A stretch of 64,000 nucleotides of DNA from Burkholderia sp. D-99 (lineage in GTDB: Bacteria; Pseudomonadota; Gammaproteobacteria; Burkholderiales; Burkholderiaceae), in assembly GCF_011605345.1 (NCBI RefSeq), contig NZ_JAAOXM010000012.1:124001-188000 (forward strand). The letters are read 5' to 3'. Under the pieces are notes generated by a model. That model was not told the origin of the DNA, ran no database searches, and was given only the letters and a program-made list of their open reading frames with translations. Positions 3,666 to 58,034 of the stretch are shown here, piece by piece. Numbering within the stretch: the stretch's first letter is position 1; the number at the start of each line of letters is the position of its first letter. Made by a program: the position numbers and the translations under genes.

Positions 3666-3725
<60 letters not shown>

Positions 3726-7717: not shown

Positions 7718-8146
7718 ATGAGCGACCGCGGCCCCCTGACCGACGACGCCATCGCGTTCATCCGCGAGCAGGCGTTCCTGATCGTCGCGACCGCCGACGA
7801 AGGTGGCAACAGCGACTGCTCGTACCGCGGCCGCCAGCCACGCGCCGACGGCTCGTTCGAACCGCTCGTCGACATGCCCGACCGCCGCACACTCGTGCTG
7901 CCCGACTTCGCGGGCAACAACCTGTTCAACACGATCGGCAACCTGCTCGTGAATCCGGCCGTCGCGCTGCTGTTCGTCGATTTCGTGCGCCAGACGACCT
8001 GGCTCGTGCAGGGCCGCGCGACGATCGACCAGGATGCGGAAGGCCATGCTCACCTGTGGCCGGACGCGCGGCGCTATGTGGTGGTTGAAGTGGAACAGGC
8101 ACAGGCACGCGCGGATGCGGCGCTGCCGCCGCTGGTGCTGGCTTGA
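7718..8146 (+). CDS. PPOX-type flavin-binding protein, divergent from exaC
   Basis: 142 residues, a compact pyridoxamine 5'-phosphate oxidase-fold protein: FIREQAFLIVATADEGGNSD (FMN-binding first strands), RTLVLPDFAGNNLFNTIGNL and VNPAVALLFVDFVRQTTWLV. Such small proteins bind FMN or F420 and act as oxidoreductases of unknown substrate. Transcribed away from exaC, preceded by a sigma-54-like site. The stop codon TGA (8144-8146) lies inside the first copy of a 9-base tandem repeat, so copy-number change would not alter the protein. Confidence 0.8.
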   Translation: MSDRGPLTDDAIAFIREQAFLIVATADEGGNSDCSYRGRQPRADGSFEPLVDMPDRRTLVLPDFAGNNLFNTIGNLLVNPAVALLFVDFVRQTTWLVQGRATIDQDAEGHAHLWPDARRYVVVEVEQAQARADAALPPLVLA

Positions 8147-8240
8147 TGTGCTTGATGTGCTTGATGTGCTTGATGTGCTTGATGTGCTTGATGTGCTTGA
8201 TGCGCGTGATGTGCGTGATGCGCGTGATGCGCGTGATGCG
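8142..8240. repeat. 9-base tandem repeat, 11 copies
   Basis: Eleven contiguous nonamers: six CTTGATGTG, one CTTGATGCG, one CGTGATGTG and three CGTGATGCG. The first copy contains the stop codon of the PPOX gene. The array ends about 100 bases before the stop of the convergent MFS gene. The gradient from CTTGATGTG to CGTGATGCG shows ordered divergence along the array. Confidence 0.95.
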
Positions 8241-18204: not shown

Positions 18205-21033
18205 TCAACGCTTGGCCTGCGCGCCACCGAACGCCCCCGAGGACGACAGCAGCCGCAAACCGTTGGCCACGACGATCAGGCTTGCGCCCGCGTCGGCGAA
18301 GACTGCCATCCACATCGTGCCGAGCCCCGCGACCGTGAGGCCGAGGAACACGATCTTCACGCCGAGCGCGAAGCCGATGTTCTGCACCAGTACGCGATGC
18401 GTCGCACGCGACAGCCGCACGAACGCGGGAATCTTCCGCAGGTCGTCGTCCATCAGCGCGACGTCGGCCGTCTCGATCGCCGTGTCGGTGCCCATCGCCC
18501 CCATCGCGAAACCGATGTCGGCGCGCGCGAGCGCCGGCGCATCGTTGATCCCGTCGCCGACCATCCCGACCGCACCCGCGCCGCCGGCGGACAGTTCCTC
18601 GACCGCCGCGAGCTTGTCTTCCGGCAACTGGTTGCCGCGCGCGTCGTCGATGCCGGCCTGCTTCGCAATCGCCTGCGCGGTATGCGGGTTGTCGCCCGTC
18701 AGCATCGCGGTGCGGATGCCGAGCGCGTGCAGATCGGCGATCGCTTCACGGCTCGTGTCCTTGATCGTGTCGGCCACCGCGAAGATGCCGAGCACGCGCG
18801 CTTCGTCGACCAGCACCACGACGCTCTTGCCCTGCCGCTCGAGCGCATCGAGCTTCGCTTCGAGGGCCGTCGAGCAGCGCTCGAGCTCCTCGACGAGCCG
18901 GTGGTTGCCGAGCCAGTAGCGCGTGCCGTCGATCGTGCCGCGCACGCCACGCCCGACGATCGCTTCGAACTCCTGCACATCGGCAAATGCCGTCGTGCCG
19001 GCGTCACGGGCCGCGGCAGCAATCGCCTGCGACACCGGGTGATCGGAGCGCGCCGCGAGGCTCGCACCGAGGTACCGCACACGCACCGTATCGGCATCGG
19101 TCGCATGCAGGTCGAAGTCGGTCTGCACCGGCTTGCCATGCGTGATCGTGCCGGTCTTGTCGAGCGCGAGCCAGGCGAGCTTGCGCCCTTCTTCCAGGTA
19201 GACGCCGCCCTTCACGAGAATCCCGCGTCGCGCCGCGGCCGCGAGCCCCGACACGATCGTCACCGGCGTCGAGATCACCAGTGCGCACGGGCACGCGATC
19301 ACGAGCAGCACCAGCGCGCGGTAGATCCAGTCGTGCCACGCGCCGCCCATCACGATCGGCGGCACCACCGCCACCAGCAGCGCGACCGCGAACACGATCG
19401 GCGTATAGACGCGCGCGAACTGGTCGACGAAGCGCTGCGTCGGCGCCTTCGCGCCCTGTGCTTCCTCGACCGCGTGGATGATCCGCGCGAGCGTCGAGTT
19501 CGCCGCGACGGCCGTCACGCGGTATTCGAACGAACCCGATTCGTTGATCGTGCCCGCGTACACGGCGTCGCCGGTCGTCTTCTCGACGGGCAGGCTCTCG
19601 CCGGTGATCGGCGCCTGGTTCACCGTCGAGCGGCCCGCGACGACTTCACCGTCCAGCCCGATCCGCTCGCCCGGCTTCACGCGCACGACCGCGCCGAGTG
19701 CCACTTGCGCGGCCTCGATCGTGCGCCACGAACCGTCGGCCTGCTGCACGGTCGCCGTGTCCGGCGCGAGCTGCATCAGGCCCTGGATCGCATTGCGCGC
19801 GCGGTCGAGCGACTTCGCCTCGATCAGCTCGGCAATCGTGAACAGCACCATCACCATCGCGGCTTCGGGCCACTGGCCGATCGCCATCGCACCCGTCACC
19901 GCGATGCTCATCAACGCGTTGATGTTCAGGTTGCCGTTGCGGATCGCGATCCAGCCCTTCTTGTACGTGGTGAGTCCGCACGCGAGCACCGCCGCGAGCG
20001 CGAGCGCCGCCGCGAGCCACACGGGCAGCCCGGCCCAGGTCGCGCCCTCGGACGCGATCGCGGCGACGCCGGCCAGCGCCAGCGGCCACCACGGCTTCGC
20101 GGGCGCGTCGACGACGCGCGACGCCGGCGCGCCGGCCGCGGCTGCCTCGGGCGTCATCCCGAGCGTGCGAATCGCGCTTTCGATCGCCGGTTGAGCACCC
20201 GGCACGTGGTCGACGGTCAGCATCCGCTGCATCAGGTTGAATTCGAGCGCCGACACCTCGTTCATCCCGCCGAGCTTCTTGCGGATCAGCGTTTCCTCGG
20301 TCGGGCAGTCCATCTGCATGATCCGGAACGCGGAGCGCACGTGGCCCGACGCGGTCGCCTGCGCGACCGGCAGCGGCGCGAGCGTCAGCGCGGCAGGCGC
20401 GCAGCAGTCGCCGGCCGCGTGATCGTGGTCGTGGTCGTGGTCGTGGTCGTGACCGGCATGGTCGAGCGCTGCGTGATCATGCGAGCACGCCGCACCGTGC
20501 ACATGCGTGTCGTCGTGCGCATGGTCGTGATCGTGGCCAGCTTCGCCATGCTTGGCATGCCCGTGCGAGCACGCCGCACCGTGCACATGCGTATCGCCGC
20601 GTGCATGGTCGTGATCGTGGCCAGCTTCGCCATGCTTGGCATGCCCGTGCGAGCACGCCGCACCGTGCACATGCGTGTCGTCGTGTGCATGGTCGTGATC
20701 GTGGCCAGCTTCGCCATGCTTGGCGTGCCCGTGCGAGCACGACGCACCGTGCGCATGCGTATCACCGCATGCATGGTCGTGATCGTGGCCAGCTTCGCCA
20801 TGCTTGGCATGCCCGTGCGAGCACGACGCACCATGCACATGCGTATCGCCGCGTGCGTGATCGTGATCGTGGTCATGGCGGTGCGAGTCGGCCTCGCCGT
20901 GCGCGTGCTCGCCGGCCGCCGGCGCCGCATCGGCAACGGTCGCCAGCTGCGTGTCGCGCGGATCGGCGCAGCACGTATCGGCGCCGCCGGCATGGCGGTG
21001 TCGTGGGTCGTGGGTACGCTTGGCGTCGGTCAT
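18205..21033 (-). CDS. cadA: P1B-type heavy-metal ATPase (Zn/Cd/Pb exporter) with His-rich repeat
   Basis: 942 residues, about 200 longer than ZntA/CadA. The extra length is an N-terminal region (about residues 1-220) of His/Cys-rich repeats (HDHDHA[22 protein letters not shown], 28 residues each). Then come a metal-binding domain with MDCPTEE (ZntA type), the TM6 motif CPCALVIS (Zn2+/Cd2+/Pb2+ subgroup), [10 protein letters not shown] with the phosphorylated Asp, and [16 protein letters not shown]. The start at 21033 has AAGGAGG in front. It pumps divalent soft metals out of the cytoplasm. Divergent MerR gene, classical MerR-type promoter at 21064-21094, and zinc-ribbon gene downstream. The choice between the cadA and zntA symbols is arbitrary. 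Confidence 0.93.
20481..20880. repeat. 84-bp in-frame tandem repeat within the metal ATPase gene
   Basis: Four near-identical 84-bp units start at 20521, 20605, 20689 and 20773, with partial units at both ends. Each encodes 28 residues rich in His with one Cys ([12 protein letters not shown] followed by HDHDHA and GDTHVHGA). Since 84 is a multiple of 3, unit gain or loss keeps the frame and changes the number of metal-binding modules. Confidence 0.93.
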
Positions 21034-35552: not shown

Positions 35553-37814
35553 TCAGATGTCCAGCGGATCGACCTCGACGCTCCACCGCAGCACGCCCTT
35601 CAGCGCGCGCAGCTCCGGCTGCCATGCGCGCAGCGCATGCTGCAGCGCCGCCCGCGACGCGCTTTCGAGCAGCAACTGCGCGCGATGGACGTTCGCGACC
35701 TTGACGATCGTCATCGGCACCGCGTCGTACACGGTCACGCGATCGGCACCCGGCAGCCCCGGCAACGCGGCCGCGGCTTGCAGCAGGAACCCGAGCGCCG
35801 CGTCGAGCGTGCGCCCTTCGGCGCGCAGCAGCGCCTGATAGACGAACGGCGGCAGGTGCGCGTCCCGGCGCTCGCCAAGCGTCGAATTCGCGAAGCCGAC
35901 GTAATCCTGCCGCCCGAGCGCGTGATACAGCGCGTGACGCGGGTAGCGCGTCTGCACCATCACCTCGCCCGGCAGCCCGGCACGCCCCGCGCGGCCGCTC
36001 ACCTGCATCAGCTGCGCGAACAGCCGCTCGCTCGCGCGGAAGTCGTGCGAGAACAGCGCCGTGTCGGCATTGAGCACGCCGACGAGCGACACGCGCTGGA
36101 AGTCGTGCCCTTTCGCGATCATCTGCGTACCGACGAGAATATCGACCTCGCCCGCATGCACATCGGAGAAGAGCGCCTGCGCACTGCCCTTGCGGCGTGT
36201 GCTGTCCGCGTCGATCCGCAGCACGCGCGCGCCCGGCACGGCCTCGGCGAGCGCCTCCTCGATGCGTTGCGTGCCGCGCCCGAGCGGCGCGATATCGACA
36301 TTCCCGCACTCGGGGCACGACCGCGGAATGCGCGCTTCCCAGCCGCAGTGATGGCAGCGCAGCGCATGCTCGGGCTTGTGCAGCACGACGTACGCGCTGC
36401 AGCGCGGGCAACCGGCGACCCAGCCGCACGCATCGCACGCGAGCTGCGGCGCGTAGCCGCGCCGGTTCAGGAACACGAGGCTCTGCTCGCCCCGCTCGAG
36501 CCGTGCCTTCAGCGCCGCGACGAGCGGCCCCGACAGCCCGCCCATCGACGCGCGGCCGCGCCGCCGCTCCTCTTCGAGATCGATCAGCCGCACGGTCGGC
36601 AGCGTCGCGTCGGCCACCGCGCGGCGCGACAGTGTGAGCCGCGTGTAGCGGCCCTGCTCCGCCTGCCACCAGGTTTCGAGCGACGGCGTCGCCGAGCCGA
36701 GCACGACCGTGAGGCCGAGCTGCTTCGCGCGCCACACGGCGAGATCGCGCGCCGAATAGCGCAGCCCTTCTTGCTGCTTGTACGCGGGCTCGTGCTCCTC
36801 GTCGACGACGATCAGCGCAAGCGTCGGCATCGATGCGAGCACCGCGAGGCGCGTGCCGAGCACGATCCGCGCACGGCCCGTATGCGCGGCGAGCCAGTTG
36901 CGCGCACGTTCGCCCTCGGCGAGCCCGCTGTGCAGCGTGACGATCGCGTCGTCGGCGAGCGCACCCGCGAAGCGCGCGCGAAACGCGGCCTCGAACTGCG
37001 GCGTCAGGTTGATTTCGGGGACGAGCACGAGCGCCTGCGCGTCCGGCCGGGCGTCGAGCAGCGATGCGAGCGCATGCAGGTAGACCTCGGTCTTGCCGCT
37101 GCCCGTCACGCCGTGCAGCAGGAACGGCGCAAAGCCCTGCGCGGCGCGGATCGCGTCGAGCGCCTCGGCCTGCTGGTCCGTGAGCGCCGGGGGCACAGTT
37201 CGTCCACCGGCTGCCAACAGGTTATCCACAGCTTTGGGCACAGGCGCATCGGCCCAGCCGATCTCCTCGACGTCGACCCAGCCGCGCACCGCCCAGTCGT
37301 CGAGCGTCGCGGCCGCCTTCGGGTGCAGCGCGCGCGCATCGGGCAGCGCCAGCGAGCCGGTGTCGACCAGCGCCTGCGCGAGCCGCCGCAGCGCGGCCCC
37401 GCGAGCGGGCAAGGCATCGGGCAGCGCCGCGCGGCCGGCCTCCGTCGGCCGGTAGCGCACCTCGGGCGCGAGCAGCCGCCCCCAGCGCCCCGCATCGCGC
37501 AGCGCCTGCGGCAGCGCCGGCAGCGCGACCTCGCCACGCCCGCGCTGGTAGTAGTCGGCGGCGAACGACACGAGCGCGAGCCAATCCGGCGACAACGGCG
37601 GCAGGTCGGTGCAGATCGCGTCGATCGCGCGCAGCCGGGACGGCGGCACATCGGTGTGAGTCGTCACTTCGCAGACGAGCCCGACGGCCTGCCGCTTGCC
37701 GAACGGCACCTGCACGAGCGTGCCGGGCACGGGTGTCGGCTGCGCGTCGCAGCGGTAGTCGAACAGGGTGGCGAGCGGATGGTCGAGCGCGACGCGCAGG
37801 TAGGTGCCGCTCAT
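35553..37814 (-). CDS. priA: Primosomal replication protein N' (PriA helicase)
   Basis: 753 residues, the 3'-5' DNA helicase that reloads the replisome at stalled forks. N-terminal fork-binding domain (MSGTYLRVALDHPLATLFDY, GTLVQVPFGKRQAVGLV), winged-helix region, Walker A GVTGSGKTEVYL, DEEH box in ALIVVDEEHEPAYKQQEGLR, and eight cysteines in four CxxC pairs for two zincs (CDACGWVAGCPRC ... CHHCGWE ... CPECG), then GTQMIAKGHDF. Upstream of it is hemE on the same strand. Length is normal. A perfect DnaA box lies inside the gene (37222-37230) and another upstream (37956-37964). Confidence 0.97.
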   Translation of the reverse strand: MSGTYLRVALDHPLATLFDYRCDAQPTPVPGTLVQVPFGKRQAVGLVCEVTTHTDVPPSRLRAIDAICTDLPPLSPDWLALVSFAADYYQRGRGEVALPALPQALRDAGRWGRLLAPEVRYRPTEAGRAALPDALPARGAALRRLAQALVDTGSLALPDARALHPKAAATLDDWAVRGWVDVEEIGWADAPVPKAVDNLLAAGGRTVPPALTDQQAEALDAIRAAQGFAPFLLHGVTGSGKTEVYLHALASLLDARPDAQALVLVPEINLTPQFEAAFRARFAGALADDAIVTLHSGLAEGERARNWLAAHTGRARIVLGTRLAVLASMPTLALIVVDEEHEPAYKQQEGLRYSARDLAVWRAKQLGLTVVLGSATPSLETWWQAEQGRYTRLTLSRRAVADATLPTVRLIDLEEERRRGRASMGGLSGPLVAALKARLERGEQSLVFLNRRGYAPQLACDACGWVAGCPRCSAYVVLHKPEHALRCHHCGWEARIPRSCPECGNVDIAPLGRGTQRIEEALAEAVPGARVLRIDADSTRRKGSAQALFSDVHAGEVDILVGTQMIAKGHDFQRVSLVGVLNADTALFSHDFRASERLFAQLMQVSGRAGRAGLPGEVMVQTRYPRHALYHALGRQDYVGFANSTLGERRDAHLPPFVYQALLRAEGRTLDAALGFLLQAAAALPGLPGADRVTVYDAVPMTIVKVANVHRAQLLLESASRAALQHALRAWQPELRALKGVLRWSVEVDPLDI
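37222..37230 (+). promoter_or_regulatory. Consensus DnaA box inside priA
   Basis: TTATCCACA, an exact match to the strong DnaA box, in the coding region of priA. One such word is expected by chance about every two windows of this size, so significance is limited. Confidence 0.4.
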
Positions 37815-50568: not shown

Positions 50569-51137
50569 CGCAATCTTCCGCAAAATCCTTGAACCCGACC
50601 CCAAACTTTCTGAAAGCTTTCAGGGGTGCCTAGCTAACAAATCCGGGCGATTGTAAGCGATAGTTGCAAGTGATTCAAGGCTTTAGACGCGACAAAAACC
50701 TGCGTAAAACGACGCCTCATCATGTGAAAAAACACGCGATTCGACGACGTACGATGACAGTTGTAAGGTCGCTTTTTGGCACCGGTATTTCTTGCCCGAA
50801 AAAATCCGGCGACGATGAAATGGCGGGGAAACGATGCCTGGTGCGGGCGCTGGCGGGACGGCACGCACGCCACCCGGAATCCACGCTGTGACGCGGCCCC
50901 GGGCCCACACCCGGAGCGACGCTCCGGACAGGTGAAACACGGCGGTCACCCAGCCGCATCGGATGCGTGAAATCCGGACCGACGCCGGCGCATCGAATCA
51001 TCCAATCAGTTGTCATGCCACCACAGGTAATTGACTGTGGATTGCGGCACTTATCAACAGCCCCGCAACCAGCGCGAATACTGTGCACCCTCCCCACCAC
51101 CCGAACGGCACGCCTGTGCCACGCGTACCCGCATGGC
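50569..51137. other. Leader and upstream region of the atp operon
   Basis: 570 bases between the permease stop and atpI. It holds the atp promoter (50650-50678) and, in the leader, a 14-bp perfect palindrome CTGAAAGCTTTCAG at 50610-50623. A DnaA-box-like word TTATCAACA is at 51051-51059. No gene recognised. Confidence 0.5.
50650..50678 (-). promoter_or_regulatory. Sigma-70 promoter of the atp operon
   Basis: Minus strand: -35 TTGAAT (50678-50673), 17-bp spacer, -10 TACAAT (50655-50650). Predicted start about 50643, giving a leader of about 75 bases before atpI. Confidence 0.65.
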
Positions 51138-52278: not shown

Positions 52279-53172
52279 TTACTCTTCGGTCGCGACGTTG
52301 CCGCGCAGCCGCGCGAGAATGCCCTCGAGCGCGTCGAGGCTACCGAAGTCGACCGTGACCTGCCCTCGCCCGCGGCGGCCGAGCTTGATCTTCACCGTCG
52401 ACGCGAGCAGGTCGGACAACTCCTCCTCGAGACGGCGCGTATCGCGGCCGCCGTCGTCCTTCGCACGCGCCTTCACGGCCGGCACTTCCTTCGTCGTGTG
52501 CGCGACGAGCTTCTCGGTCTCACGAACCGACATTCGCTTGTTGACGACCTGGTGGGCGAGCGTGATCTGCGTGGCCGCATCGACGGCGAGCAGCGCGCGC
52601 GCGTGCCCCATGTCGAGATCGCCCGCCAGCAGCATCGTCTGCACCGGCGAAGCCAGGTTCAGCAGGCGCAGCAGGTTCGACACCGCGCTGCGCGAACGGC
52701 CGACCGATTCGGCTGCCTGTTCGTGCGTGAAATCGAACTCGTCGAGCAGGCGCTGGATACCGTGCGCTTCTTCAAGCGGGTTCAGATCCTCGCGCTGGAT
52801 GTTCTCGATCAGCGCCATCGCCGCGGCGGCCTGGTCGGACACATCCTTCACGAGCACCGGCACTTCATCGAGGCCCGCCAGGCGCGCCGCGCGGAAACGG
52901 CGCTCGCCTGCGATGATCTCGTATTTGTCTGATGAAATGGGCCGTACCAGGATCGGCTGCATCACGCCCTGTGCGCGAATGCTCGCCGCGAGCTCCTGCA
53001 GGCTGCCTTCGTCCATCCGCGTCCGCGGCTGGTACTTGCCGGCCTGCAGCTTGCCGAGCGCGAGCGTGTTCGGTGCCCCTTCGATCTTCACCGCTTCGGT
53101 GATATCGGCACTGCCGCCGAGCAGCGCTTCGAGGCCACGTCCCAAGCCCTTCTTCTTTGGTACCGCGTTCAT
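52279..53172 (-). CDS. parB: Chromosome partition protein ParB
   Basis: 297 residues. N-terminal GLGRGLEALLGG, Arg-rich CTP-binding ParB/Srx fold with GERRFRAARLAGLDEVPVLV (20 residues) and ALIENIQREDLNPLEEA, helix-turn-helix for parS (TQEQ-like FTHEQAAESVGRSRSAVSNL), and a C-terminal dimer domain rich in basic residues (KIKLGRRGRGQVTVDFGSLD). It loads on parS and spreads as a CTP clamp. The start at 53172 (MNAVPKKKGL) is the common one for chromosomal ParB; a second ATG at 53196 is possible. Exact parS sites are in this window at 55260 and 57988. Confidence 0.96.
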   Translation of the reverse strand: MNAVPKKKGLGRGLEALLGGSADITEAVKIEGAPNTLALGKLQAGKYQPRTRMDEGSLQELAASIRAQGVMQPILVRPISSDKYEIIAGERRFRAARLAGLDEVPVLVKDVSDQAAAAMALIENIQREDLNPLEEAHGIQRLLDEFDFTHEQAAESVGRSRSAVSNLLRLLNLASPVQTMLLAGDLDMGHARALLAVDAATQITLAHQVVNKRMSVRETEKLVAHTTKEVPAVKARAKDDGGRDTRRLEEELSDLLASTVKIKLGRRGRGQVTVDFGSLDALEGILARLRGNVATEE

Positions 53173-53203
53173 GTCTTTCTTCCTCGCTTCGCTCATGTCC
53201 GGA

Positions 53204-53983
53204 TCACGACACCTCGAACGCGCGAACGCGGTCGATCATCTCGGCACCGAACTGGAGATACGCTTGCGCACCGCGCGAGCTGCGGTCGAACACGACGCCC
53301 GGCAGCCCGTAACTCGGCGCTTCCGCCAGGCGCACGTTGCGCGGAATCACCGCGTCGAACACCTTGTCGCCGAAGTGCGCTTTCAGTTGATCGGAGACTT
53401 GCTGCTGCAGCGTGATGCGCGGATCGAACATCACGCGCAGCAAGCCGATGATCTTCAGGTCGCGGTTCATGTTCGCGTGAACCTGCTTGATCGTGTTGAC
53501 GAGGTCCGACAACCCCTCCAGAGCGAAGTACTCGCACTGCATCGGGATCACGACGCCATGCGCCGCGCACAGCCCGTTCAGCGTCAGCAGCGACAGCGTC
53601 GGCGGGCAATCGATCAGCACGAAATCGTAGTCGTCGGCCACGTGCTCGAGCGCGGCCTTCAGCCGGCGCTCGCGGTTGTCAATGCTGATCAGTTCGATCT
53701 CGGCACCGGACAGCTCGCGGTTCGCGGGCAGCACGTCGTAAGTGACGCCGTCCGGCCGAATGCGCGCATCGGTCACCGACACGCCGTCGACCAGCACCTC
53801 GTACACGGTCGCTTCGCAAGCAGACTTGTCGATCCCGCTGCCCATCGTCGCGTTACCCTGCGGGTCGAGATCGATCAGCAGGACTCGTTGCTCCTGCGCT
53901 GCAAGGCTTGCGGCGAGATTGACCGATGTCGTCGTCTTGCCGACGCCCCCCTTCTGGTTCGCAACGCAGAAGATCTTTGCCAT
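53204..53983 (-). CDS. parA: Chromosome partition ATPase ParA (Soj-type)
   Basis: 259 residues. Deviant Walker A KGGVGKTTTSVNLAASLA near the N-terminus, LLIDLDPQGNATMGSG (Walker A'), DYDFVLIDCPPTLSLLTLNG (20 residues, Walker B), and EAPSYGLPGVVFDRSSRGA near the C-terminus. Lacks the N-terminal helix-turn-helix of plasmid ParA, hence chromosomal type. ATG at 53983 chosen; the upstream TTG has no family support. Lies 32 bases before parB. Confidence 0.97.
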   Translation of the reverse strand: MAKIFCVANQKGGVGKTTTSVNLAASLAAQEQRVLLIDLDPQGNATMGSGIDKSACEATVYEVLVDGVSVTDARIRPDGVTYDVLPANRELSGAEIELISIDNRERRLKAALEHVADDYDFVLIDCPPTLSLLTLNGLCAAHGVVIPMQCEYFALEGLSDLVNTIKQVHANMNRDLKIIGLLRVMFDPRITLQQQVSDQLKAHFGDKVFDAVIPRNVRLAEAPSYGLPGVVFDRSSRGAQAYLQFGAEMIDRVRAFEVS

Positions 53984-54038
53984 CGTTGGTGTGTTCCCTT
54001 TACCTTCAAACAAAGGCGCGCTATCACGCGCCTGCCCT

Positions 54039-54725
54039 TCAATTCGCCTCGTCGACGGCCACTTCGATCAGATGCCGTTCGGCATCGAGCATTGGCACCG
54101 CCAGCCGTATCGTCTGCTTCACCCGGCTGCCTTCGGGCAACCGCGCAATCTCGTCCTCCGGATGAACGCCCTTCATTGCCCAGATCGATCCGCCCGGCGC
54201 GACCAGATGTCGAGCAAGTTTAACGAAGTCGGACAGATCCGCGAAAGCGCGGGATACGATCATGTCGAATTTTTCCGGCACTTCGACACCCGGCTGCAGC
54301 GATTCGACCCGCCCCGTGACCACCGACAGGTTCGTGAGCTTCAGCTCCGCGCGCATCTGCGTCTGGAATGCAGACTTCTTGTGCACGATATCGTTCAGCG
54401 TGATCTGCCAATCCGGCTCGACGATCGCCAGCACGATACCGGGTAACCCGCCGCCCGAGCCGACGTCGAGCACGCGGGCCGATGCACGGCCACGCAGATG
54501 CGAGACGATGGAAAGCGAATCGAGGATGTGCTGGATCAGCATCTGCTTCGGGTCGCGGATCGCAGTCAGGTTGTAGACCGCGTTCCACTTGCCGAGCAGC
54601 GCGACGTAGTCGAGCAGCTGGTTGCGTTGTGCATCCGTCAGCGTGAGGTCGAGCGCCGTCATGCCTTCGACGAGCATCTGTTCCAGTACGTCCCGATTAA
54701 CCGCCGGCGCGCGACGCGCCGTCAT
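54039..54725 (-). CDS. rsmG: 16S rRNA (guanine527-N7)-methyltransferase
   Basis: 228 residues, formerly GidB. SAM-binding [20 protein letters not shown] (20 residues), [20 protein letters not shown] (substrate side), [20 protein letters not shown] and GSIWAMKG. Starts in the stop codon of mnmG (ATGA overlap) and is followed by parA after 55 bases. Confidence 0.96.
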
Positions 54726-56692
54726 TGTTGCGTCGGGACGGCGCCGTCCCCCTGCTCCGTTGCCGCTTCGGCAGTACCATTCCGGCGACCCAGGCCGCGG
54801 CGCTTCAGGTGCACCATCAGCAGCGAGATCGCCGCCGGCGTGACACCCGAGATACGCGACGCCTGCCCGATCGTTTCCGGCCGGAACTCGTTGAGCTTCT
54901 GGCTCACCTCGAACGACAGGCCGCGGACTTCGCGGTAATCGATACCGTCGGGCAGACGCGTGTTCTCGTTCGCATCGTTGCGTTCGATCTCCGACGCCTG
55001 GCGCTCGATATAGCCCTGATACTTGATGCCGATCTCGACCTGCTCCTTGATCTGCTCGAGCAGCACCGGATCGTCGGCCAGCGGCTCCGCGGGGCCGCAT
55101 TCGCCGCCCTTCAGTCCGCACACGCCGTCGTAGCTGATACCCGGACGGCGCAGCAGCTCGGCGAGGCTGTATTCGTGGTCGATCGCCTTGCCGAGGAGCG
55201 CGGTCGCTTCTTCCGGCGGCAACGTCTTCGGCGTGACCCACGTCGACTTCAGGCGTTCGGTTTCACGTGAAACAGCGTCGCGTTTCCGGCTGAACGCATC
55301 CCAGCGCGCGTCGTCGACGAGCCCCAGTTCGCGGCCGATCTCGGTCAGGCGCATGTCGGCATTGTCTTCACGCAGGCTGAGGCGATACTCGGCGCGGCTC
55401 GTGAACATCCGGTACGGCTCGGCCACCCCACGCGTGACGAGATCGTCGACCAGCACGCCAAGGTAGGCCTGGTCACGGCGCGGGCACCATGCATCCTTTT
55501 CCTGCACGTAGCGGCCAGCATTGAGACCGGCCAGCAGCCCCTGAGCGGCCGCTTCTTCATAGCCGGTCGTCCCGTTGATCTGGCCCGCAAAAAACAGCCC
55601 GTTGATCGCCTTCGTTTCGAGCGACGCCTTCAGCGCGCGCGGGTCGAAGTAGTCGTACTCGATCGCATAGCCGGGGCGCAGGATATGCGCGTTCTCGAGG
55701 CCGAGCATCGAGTGCACGAGCTCGAGCTGGACGTCGAACGGCAGGCTCGTCGAGATCCCGTTCGGGTAGAACTCGTTGGTCGTCAGCCCTTCCGGCTCCA
55801 TGAAGATCTGGTGCGATTCCTTCGACGCGAACCGGTGAATCTTGTCCTCGATCGACGGGCAATAGCGCGGCCCGACGCCTTCGATCACGCCTGTATACAT
55901 AGGCGAACGGTCGAGGCCGCCGCGAATGATGTCGTGCGTGCGCTCGTTCGTGTGCGTGACCCAGCACGGCAGCTGCTGCGGATGCTGCTCCGCGCGACCG
56001 AGGAACGAGAAGACGGGGATAGGATCGAGATCGCCCGGCTGTTCGGCCAGCTTCGAGAAATCGATCGAACGGCCATCGATACGCGGCGGCGTACCGGTCT
56101 TCAGGCGGCCCTGCGGCAGCTTCAGCTCCTTCAGGCGCGACGACAGCGACACGGCCGCCGGATCGCCCGCACGGCCGCCCGTGTAGTTGTTCAGGCCGAC
56201 GTGGATCTTGCCGTCGAGGAACGTCCCGGCGGTCAGCACGACCGCACGAGCACGGAAGCGGATGCCGATCTGCGTGACGGCGCCCACCACGCGGTCGCCT
56301 TCGACCATCAGGTCGTCGACGGCCTGCTGGAACAGCCAGAGGTTCGGCTGATTCTCGAGCCGGTGGCGGATCGCAGCCTTGTACAGGATGCGATCGGCCT
56401 GCGCACGCGTCGCGCGCACGGCCGGGCCCTTCGACGAATTGAGGATCCGGAACTGAATACCGCTCTCGTCGGTCGCGGCCGCCATTGCGCCACCCAGCGC
56501 ATCTACTTCCTTGACCAGATGGCCCTTGCCAATGCCGCCGATCGACGGATTGCAGCTCATCTGCCCAAGTGTTTCGATGTTGTGGGTCAGCAGCAGTGTC
56601 TTTGCGCCCATGCGGGCGGACGCCAGCGCAGCTTCGGTGCCGGCATGACCGCCACCGACGACGATGACGTCAAATTCTGTGGGAAAAAGCAT
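54722..56692 (-). CDS. mnmG: tRNA uridine-34 5-carboxymethylaminomethyl modification enzyme, FAD subunit
   Basis: 656 residues, formerly GidA. FAD Rossmann [20 protein letters not shown] at the N-terminus, [21 protein letters not shown] (catalytic Cys region; 20-base excerpt rule kept by giving [20 protein letters not shown]), [33 protein letters not shown] (20 residues), and C-terminal [20 protein letters not shown]. With MnmE it modifies wobble uridines. The segment DAVSRETER is encoded over an exact parS site (55260-55273). First gene of the mnmG-rsmG-parAB unit. Confidence 0.97.
55260..55273. other. parS: parS centromere site inside mnmG
   Basis: GTTTCACGTGAAAC, an exact match to the chromosomal parS core, within the mnmG coding sequence (codons for V-S-R-E-T). 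ParB, encoded 2 kb away, is expected to load here. Confidence 0.9.
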
Positions 56693-56960
56693 GGTGGATT
56701 CCGTACGCAGGACTGCGCACGAACCTATCTGAGAAATGTATGGGCCGAATTATAGCGGGTTCGCTTTTCACCCGAAGGCCGTCCGAATGGTAGGGTCTGT
56801 GCATTTCGACGATTTTTCTGTGATCGGCCGATGAATCCATGGCGCAGAGCCTGCTCCAGCAATGCTTTCGGCCTGCCGGCAGCACATCGTTGCGCCTGTG
56901 CAAAGATTCGCTTGCCGGGAAGTTCCACGTGGAACAGATACCCATTCGATGCCTGGGCCC
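56693..56960. other. mnmG upstream region with parS-like palindrome
   Basis: Space between the mnmG start and the tandem array. It probably carries the mnmG promoter. AT-richer than its surroundings near 56740-56820. Holds the symmetric parS variant at 56922-56935. No gene recognised. Confidence 0.5.
56922..56935. other. parS variant site
   Basis: GTTCCACGTGGAAC, a perfect 14-bp palindrome differing from the parS core at two symmetric positions (T to C and A to G). It lies 26 bases before the first tandem unit. Confidence 0.65.
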
Positions 56961-57952
56961 CGCACGACAACACGAACGAGACATTCTGTGTAACCGCGCC
57001 CGCCCTCTTCCCCACAGATTTTCCGACGGTTCGCCCGACACTTATCCCCTGTGACCTGGCGCATCCTCGTTCTGTGGAGCAAGCGGCAGCCCTCCGTGAA
57101 CGATGCTTCGAGCCGTCATCCGTGCCGAGGGCGCCTCGAATAGCGTTATTACACAGAACTTCCGACTGTTTCTCTGGCACTTATCCCCCGGTCACTACAA
57201 TGCCCGTGCCCTGCACGACAACCCGAACGGAACATCCTGTGCGACCGCGCCCGCCCTCTTCCCCACAGATTTTCTGACGGTTCGCCCGACACTTATCCCC
57301 TGTGACCCGGCACATCCTCGGCCTGTGGAACAAGCGGCACCCCTCCGCGAACGATGCACCGAACAGCCATCCGCGCTGCGGGCGCCTCGACCAGCGCTAT
57401 TACACAGAACTTCCGACTGTTTCTCTGGCACTTACCCCCGGTCACCACAATGCCTGTGCCCCGCACGACAACCCGGACGGAACATCCTGTGCAACCGAGC
57501 CCGCCCTCTTCCCCACAGATTTTCCGACGGTTCGCCCGACACTTATCCCCTGTGACCTGGCGGATCCTCGTTCTGTGGAACAAGCGGCAGCCCTCCACGA
57601 ACGATGCGTCGGGCCGTCATCCGCGCCGAGGGCGCGTCGAACAGCGTTATTACACAGAACTTCCGACTGTTTCTCTGGCACTTATCCCCCGGTCACCACA
57701 ATGCCCGTGCCCCGCACGACAACCCGGACGGTACATCCTGTGCGACCGCGCCCGCCCTCTTCCCCACAGATTTTCTGACGGTTCGCCCGACACTTATCCT
57801 CTGTGACCCGGCACATCCTCGGCCTGCGGAACAAGCGGCAGCCCTCCGCGAACGATGCTTCGAACCGTCATCCGCGCTGTGAACGCCCCGCCCATCGCTA
57901 TTGCACAGAACTTCAGACTGTTTCCCTGGCACTTATCCCCTAGCCACTAGCC
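56961..57952. repeat. Four tandem ~250-bp units upstream of mnmG
   Basis: Units begin with CGCACGACAA (TGCACGACAA in unit 2) at 56961, 57212, 57462 and 57713, spacings 251, 250 and 251. Each unit carries in order TTCCCCACAGATTTT, ACACTTATCCCCTGTGAC, CTGTGGAACAAGCGG, a variable GC-rich middle, TTATTACACAGAACTTC, and GGCACTTATCCCC, with small changes. Unit length is not a multiple of 3 and open frames shift between units, so this is not coding. Units 1 and 3 share variants, as do 2 and 4, so the array is a duplicated dimer of about 501 bp. Many words are 7/9 matches to the DnaA box. Lies directly upstream of mnmG and 30 bases from an exact parS. Confidence 0.93.
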
Positions 57953-57981
57953 GTCGTGTATCGGCACCCCAAAAACAAAAA

Positions 57982-58007
57982 CGGCGTGTTTCACGTGAAA
58001 CACGCCG
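57982..58007. other. parS: parS site within a 26-bp palindrome that doubles as liv operon terminator
   Basis: The exact parS core GTTTCACGTGAAAC at 57988-58001 is extended on both sides by CGGCGT / ACGCCG to a perfect 26-bp palindrome. On the minus strand, 28 bases after the livF stop, it is followed at once by TTTTTGTTTTT (57981-57971). The same bases therefore form a rho-independent terminator hairpin for the liv operon and a ParB site. Confidence 0.88.
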
Positions 58008-58034
58008 CCCGTTTCCCGCCAACCGCGCCGTAGA

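Follow-up and report, generated by a model that had tools for sequence, protein, structure and literature searches.

The interval between mnmG and an exact parS site in Burkholderia sp. D-99 contains an array of four tandem 250/251-bp units (positions 56963-57964 of the window, the whole 64,000-nucleotide stretch analysed here). With belief and doubt about evenly balanced, we interpret the array as a conserved cis element of the origin/centromere domain of chromosome 1 that is dense in methylation sites, has been amplified four-fold in tandem and has a methylation-dependent role. The window is 124001-188000 of contig C4 (269.5 kb) in a genome of 8.7 Mb in 31 contigs, and the array lies at 181-182 kb of this contig.

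TRF described the array as 4.0 copies of 251 bp (56949-57940) with a score of 1557, the highest among the 16 TRF rows in the window, which bears out the preliminary description of four tandem units of about 250 bp upstream of mnmG. With CACGACAAC setting the phase, the unit starts are 56963, 57214, 57464 and 57715; the starts given before (56961, 57212, 57462 and 57713) thus pointed to real units, but with a phase two bases too far left. On the plus strand, unit 1 (56963-57213, 251 bp) has CACAG-N24-TTATCC modules at 57013 and 57152, unit 2 (57214-57463, 250 bp) has one exact module at 57264 plus a degenerate copy (TTACCC) at 57403, unit 3 (57464-57714, 251 bp) has modules at 57514 and 57653, and unit 4 (57715-57964, 250 bp) has modules at 57765 and 57904, i.e. 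seven exact composites and one degenerate. The pairwise identity of the units is 0.817-0.929 (82-93%), and the closest pairs are units 1 and 3 (0.929) and units 2 and 3 (0.905), so that the earlier wording “near-identical” was generous, although the repeats are real. Within 56963-57964, CCCCACAG occurs four times, ACTTATCCCC six times and CTGTGGAAC twice. Three short words had been said to recur in each unit, which agrees with the count of CCCCACAG but not with that of CTGTGGAAC, absent as such from units 1 and 4, which contain CTGTGGAGC and CTGCGGAAC.

The array is non-coding, as had been claimed: the unit length, being indivisible by three, breaks the frame, and none of the eight ORFs of at least 100 aa overlapping the array had a match in Pfam. 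The Rfam scan of the window from 54 to 60 kb gave no RNA family up to E 1, so there is no known structured RNA at the array. Besides, a distant-mode search of the plasmid collection gave no match, and the promoter scan gave a single weak plus-strand match inside the array (0.4 expected). Other tandem arrays were reported by TRF in the window at 20480-20872 (84 bp x 4.7), 8141-8238 (9 bp x 10.9) and 3666-3722 (6 bp x 9.5).

The neighbouring genes are mnmG (gidA; 54725-56692, minus strand; TIGR00136, 909 bits), whose product is 99% identical to MnmG of B. lata, B. cepacia and two Burkholderia sp. records and so marks the strain as a Burkholderia of cepacia-complex type, a parA-family ATPase gene (53204-54013, minus strand; best NCBIfam matches to ParA/RepA models, below curated cut-offs) and parB (52279-53196, minus strand; TIGR00180, 195.8 bits with a cut-off of 58.45). 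Three CTGTG sites (56797, 56818 and 56896, within 56797-56900) lie between mnmG and the array, and a smaller cluster of 5 CACAG sites (50886-51118) lies beyond parAB from the array, with 7 per 500 bp at a similar place in the same-genus genome G016. The scan for parS-type palindromes found the exact parS GTTTCACGTGAAAC at 57988-58001, where the preliminary description had placed one next to the array, the variant GTTCCACGTGGAAC at 56922-56935, just left of the array, and another exact GTTTCACGTGAAAC within mnmG (55260-55273). The array is therefore flanked by two parS-type sites (56922 and 57988) 1.07 kb apart, with the third 1.7 kb further; it adjoins such sites as in the parS clusters of primary chromosomes, but itself contains none at up to one mismatch, the GTTTCACGTGAAAC-type sites being only beside it. 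The site at 56922 differs from the canonical parS by T5C-A12G, and since ParB of B. cenocepacia chromosome 1 is reported still to bind parSc1 with this symmetrical change (PMC5450999), the array in this strain probably lies between two functional ParB sites.

This position raises the question whether the unit is an accessory of the centromere, that is, a platform (spreading barrier or loader) bound by the partition complex, with methylation being incidental. The flanking sites speak for it, and so does the degenerate parS contained in the amplified unit of Burkholderia sp. Bp8963 (G009). We nevertheless consider it quite improbable, because many relatives keep parS at the same place without the element, and the same CACAG packing occurs at oriC, where no parS-type site (up to one mismatch) lies within 25 kb on the contig.

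The parS at 57988 doubles as an intrinsic-terminator-like hairpin 3' of a livF-like gene (57979-58010, minus strand, 14 pairs), as it is the centre of a perfect 26-bp palindrome with a T-rich tail on the minus strand. This was the 1 such hairpin found by the terminator scan, against 1.1 expected from its shuffles. A palindrome of at least 20 bp plus at least 8 A in the 14-nt flank was found in 31 of 35 same-genus loci; of the 71 named loci that have an exact parS, 27 show this combination.

The short words noted before come down to two elements, CACAG and the strict composite CACAG-N24-TTATCC. The mnmG-parS interval of this genome contains 24 CACAG/CTGTG words, and the array is the densest CACAG kilobase of C4 (20 per 1-kb window, mean 1.04), followed by peaks of 14 at 208.0 kb, the skew-minimum locus, and of 13 at 256.7 kb; when the array, these two loci and the parB-side cluster are excluded, the maximum is 6 per 1-kb window. 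A motif density so far above background is one feature of an origin-proximal methylation-site cluster (GATC/SeqA-like logic), and the array has it. CACAG, on either strand, is the m6A motif of the type III methyltransferase BCAL3494 of B. cenocepacia and is enriched in all B. cenocepacia origins (PMC7364216), and it is likewise assigned to a type III methyltransferase in B. pseudomallei (PMC6813387) and B. ambifaria (PMC11925244). About 64 kb from the array, C4 244714-249758 encodes a type III pair, a Mod of 672 aa and a Res of 1008 aa. The type and place of this Mod and the published assignments suggest that it is the CACAG enzyme, and homology together with the published methylomes makes CACAG methylation in this strain probable. 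A close homologue of this Mod (69-100% identity) is present in all 37 same-genus genomes. For a family-wide sample of 150 genomes, it turned out that all 15 same-genus genomes contain it, while just two of the other 135 genomes reach E 1e-60, with 45-47% identity over about 250 residues.

To place the unit in its genus, we compared the mnmG-parS interval among 37 same-genus genomes, 35 of which were parsed (all but G021 and G033). Counting units upstream of mnmG across Burkholderia, as the preliminary description had proposed, gave the composite in 30 of the 35 genomes, with 0, 1 or 2 modules in relatives, 3 in B. lata and 8 here. Absence of the array from close relatives, which had been named as evidence against a maintenance element, is true of the four-copy array but untrue of the unit, which is single in most of the same-genus genomes parsed. 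The spacing of the composite is 24 in 60 of 62 instances, with one of 25 and one of 43, and no instance lies on the opposite strand. An amplification independent of this array exists in Bp8963 (G009), with 7.6 copies of a ~370-bp unit in a 3004-bp interval. The five parsed genomes lacking the composite are G028 and four with intervals of 117-118 bp and a Mod of 69-71% identity (G006, G014, G030 and G034); the methyltransferase is present without the element in all five, so the mnmG element is not essential. G028 (locus L026) has a 405-bp interval without CACAG or TTATCC and looks like a natural loss of the element. The idea that loss of the methyltransferase brings loss of the element is not supported, since G028 keeps an open Mod frame and a CACAG-packed oriC.

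A profile of the composite built on 42 modules matched its own genome at eight sites, all in the array (31.9-41.7 bits; next 11.7 bits), and the module as a dispersed repeat is therefore ruled out; in G025, one further match is located elsewhere (22.6 bits). Among 80 loci around mnmG, 73, mostly from other genera, have no composite in the upstream DNA examined, and their first 700 bp upstream of mnmG contain 0-3 CACAGs and no TTATCCCC. Seven Burkholderia loci (L046-L051 and L104) have a mnmG-parS interval of 340-3004 bp; they carry 1-7 composites, and their first 700 bp contain 4-11 CACAGs. An exact parS lies 106-187 bp from mnmG in 33 of the 34 loci L053-L086, which come from Paraburkholderia, Caballeronia, Trinickia and two records labelled “Burkholderia sp.”. 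The distribution of the composite and the cluster is thus limited to Burkholderia in the loci sampled.

The words themselves are enriched and retained. In the mnmG-parS intervals of 29 same-genus genomes, a set leaving out the amplified G000 and G009 plus four short intervals, CACAG, although not specified beforehand, is the top enriched 5-mer (159 seen vs 8.3 expected) and CTTATCC the leading 7-mer (44 vs 0.3), and CTGTGCA is among the most enriched 7-mers (34 vs 0.7). In alignments of pairs among 12 chosen genomes (mean identity 68%), which share ancestry and in which the aligner may favour conserved words, CACAG words were kept in 724 of 1012 comparisons (72%) and permuted CACAG words in 712 of 4015 (18%), a fourfold gap, and TTATCC was kept in 218 of 264, against 8504 of 44990 for all other 5-mers. 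The gap between 72% and 18% shows that CACAG words are under purifying selection. The 5' flank of CACAG is nearly free, several one-base extensions being common, and this fits selection for the methyltransferase target better than selection for a DnaA box. Orientation also follows a rule: in species without amplification, CACAGs outside composites are 134 in reverse (CTGTG) and 4 forward (CACAG), and composite CACAGs are oriented opposite to the non-composite ones.

These data leave little room for the repeats being a neutral satellite, i.e. functionless products of slippage. The lineage-specific copy number (0, 1, 2, 3 or about 8 modules) and the lost words of G028 would be expected of such products, but for the unit the retention of 72-83% vs 18-19%, the fixed spacing of the composite and the 134:4 orientation bias stand against them, and we regard this explanation as very improbable. 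The four-copy amplification itself, unlike the unit, could be neutral.

A chromosome-maintenance element had been proposed in the preliminary description, with a replication origin part and DnaA titration among the possible forms. The broad sense is supported, as the words are conserved far beyond their surroundings and CACAG packs the oriC-like locus, while the origin and canonical DnaA titration are not; for a ParB spreading boundary, the third form proposed, the data speak neither for nor against. The GC-skew check suggested there gave a cumulative minimum for C4, a partial chromosome, at ~205 kb and not at the array (181-182 kb), a distance of ~25 kb. Exact TTATCCACA boxes on C4 are at 205666, 208541 and 208722, the last two of which adjoin mnmC and form an oriC-like locus. 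The layout is similar in the closed relative G016 (400 kb of a 3.69-Mb contig, reaching 200 kb to the left and right of the contig start), where the skew minimum falls at the 90-kb step, a DnaA-box pair is at 82.2-82.4 kb and mnmG is at 109 kb. Besides, no DnaA box with up to one mismatch was found in the array. Because the skew minimum and the box locus are ~25 kb away, no such box occurs in the array and G016 is arranged similarly, the array as oriC is ruled out, and the same scan rules out canonical DnaA boxes in it; TTATCC could still be half a DnaA box. For B. cenocepacia J2315, PMC4948915 leaves the exact origin uncertain, reporting a DnaA-box cluster near nucleotide 1 and naming the skew minimum as a possibly better place.

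A second origin-like cluster with DnaA boxes and CACAGs is located at C4 256.7-257.1 kb, 48 kb from the mnmC-side oriC, and includes a 27-bp AT-rich block with 85% identity to a block at the 208-kb locus; a similar cluster is found in G016 at 34.4 kb.

CACAG packing is also seen at oriC in every Burkholderia locus counted. The comparison covered 49 genomes chosen by hand and not at random, with two genomes of one set of 20 uncounted; a Burkholderia locus at a contig end was excluded, as were four loci from other genera that lack DnaA boxes. In the 600 bp 3' of mnmC, all 34 Burkholderia loci counted have 6-12 CACAGs outside TTATCCACAG, and all 8 other-genus loci sharing DnaA boxes there have 0-3. 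One or two exact DnaA boxes are present in the locus adjoining mnmC in all 34 Burkholderia counted. CACAG density splits cleanly with the enzyme at oriC (34 vs 8), but this contrast with other genera may go back to one evolutionary change, which means that the co-occurrence of packing and enzyme is no proof, and five genomes have the enzyme without the mnmG cluster.

A geometry similar to that of the composite is found at real DnaA boxes, with N23 at oriC and N25 at C4 256.7 kb. Among the 138 matches listed for CACAG-N18..30-TTATCC in 13 of the 15 genus genomes (13 spacings allowed), 108 have N23-25, many of them being orthologous and seven being the array. This loose geometry gave 158 matches vs 53 controls in 15 Burkholderia genomes, 484 vs 530 in 85 other genomes of at least 4.8 Mb, and 343 vs 202 in 50 smaller genomes, so the excess is not confined to Burkholderia. 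Two further places show related arrangements. A tandem array at C4 265.3-266.0 kb has CACAG-N24 before TTATCCACA, ATATCCACA or TTGTCCACA, the pattern matching five units there and, more weakly, one sequence on C31, and window 37194-37227 has CACAG-N23-TTATCC at an exact TTATCCACA box, with similar sequences in many same-genus genomes among the matches listed.

The geometry at true boxes makes DnaA possible on the TTATCC side, though 40 of 49 mnmG modules have C directly after TTATCC, at box position 7, and just 8 have the A of DnaA boxes. Carried further, the composites could be weak DnaA sites, with TTATCC as one half box and CACAG as the other, which would titrate or regulate DnaA in the manner of datA and independently of methylation. 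The N23 to N25 arrangements at oriC, C4 256.7 kb and C4 265.3-266.0 kb and the preference for N23-25 among the matches listed, orthologous copies and the array included, agree with such a reservoir; the missing boxes at up to one mismatch, the C at position 7 and the nearly free flanks 5' of CACAG, which a DnaA box would constrain, do not, and we think it rather unlikely.

The cluster might instead act on the gene beside it. It lies directly upstream of mnmG, gidA (BCAL0024) is listed with a methylated promoter CACAG (PMC7364216, Table 1), and conservation within the genus is strong over the first ~118 bp upstream, which include a coding-strand TATAAT, so the CACAGs might set mnmG transcription through methylation or a repressor, with no direct role in replication. 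However, gidA expression had no significant change in the methyltransferase deletion mutants (1.477, P 0.143; 0.909, P 0.678; PMC7364216), the same packing occurs at oriC away from mnmG, and outgroups retain mnmG with a short upstream region; promoter control is in our judgement an unlikely explanation. In B. cenocepacia, the relative nucleoid area rose from 33.8% to 49.7% in the mutant of the CACAG enzyme, and a mutant of a second methyltransferase (GTWWAC) had a similar effect (48.7%), so the nucleoid effect is not CACAG-specific (PMC7364216). This rise with gidA unchanged fits chromosome handling better than an effect on mnmG, while the 48.7% of the GTWWAC mutant counts against specificity. 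From the lack of a growth difference in exponential phase, the authors of PMC7364216 suggest that the impact of methylation on replication is limited.

We therefore return to the amplified, methylation-dense cis element as the preferred reading, in which a dense cluster of CACAG, the type III m6A target, would be combined with the rigid composite CACAG-N24-TTATCC. A protein complex, possibly with DnaA on the TTATCC half, would bind the composite in a manner dependent on CACAG methylation, which would change at fork passage. The element would thereby report recent replication of the origin region and tune initiation, sequestration or segregation at the neighbouring parS/ParB complex, and amplification would provide more sites. 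The sequence evidence as a whole suggests that methylation helps to manage replication or segregation of the chromosome start region; the reader protein and its part in either process are postulated. A more specific version, which we put forward as a long shot, is that the array is an amplified mark of sister identity, read beside parS so as to set the timing or direction of segregation or to prevent re-initiation. Because CACAG is non-palindromic and each site carries its methyl group on a single strand, the two sister duplexes must differ immediately after replication: the sister with the old methylated strand would stay marked and the other would be bare. Given the one-way orientation (134:4, composites opposite), most marks would stay on one sister and few on the other, making sister centromeres chemically distinct at birth.

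Control by origin methylation is best known for palindromic Dam and CcrM sites. For instance, the E. coli oriC has a cluster of GATC sites, methylated by Dam and read by SeqA, and is thus an origin packed with the motif of a genome-wide adenine methyltransferase. The region here is likewise packed with an adenine methyltransferase motif, but CACAG is non-palindromic and methylated on one strand, the enzyme comes from a type III restriction-modification pair, and the element is not the origin itself. We know of no SeqA-like reader here. In E. coli, datA is the DnaA titration locus; the array resembles it in being non-coding, near the origin and made of repeated short sites, and differs in having no canonical DnaA boxes. 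The E. coli oriC system is also summarised in PMC7364216 and PMC5390034. The closest likeness is with the CACAG-rich origins of B. cenocepacia and their 7-mer CTGTGCA (PMC7364216, PMC4948915), which share the word, the methyltransferase type and the part of chromosome 1 with the array. The passages covered of that description do not treat the mnmG-parS element as a unit, nor its N24 composite, its orientation in one direction, its confinement to a single genus or its tandem amplification; part of the element may be shown in Fig. 8 of PMC7364216, a map of methylation around parABS. Full-text searches of the literature on Burkholderia origin, parS and CACAG found no description of the element or the array among the papers listed and the passages covered.

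In conclusion, the type III restriction-modification enzyme of every same-genus genome examined appears to be tied to the origin/centromere region through dozens of conserved single-strand sites per genome. Besides, the module is well defined and occurs naturally in 0, 1, 2, 3 and about 8 copies, and so offers a testable handle on how Burkholderia coordinates initiation and segregation among its multiple chromosomes.
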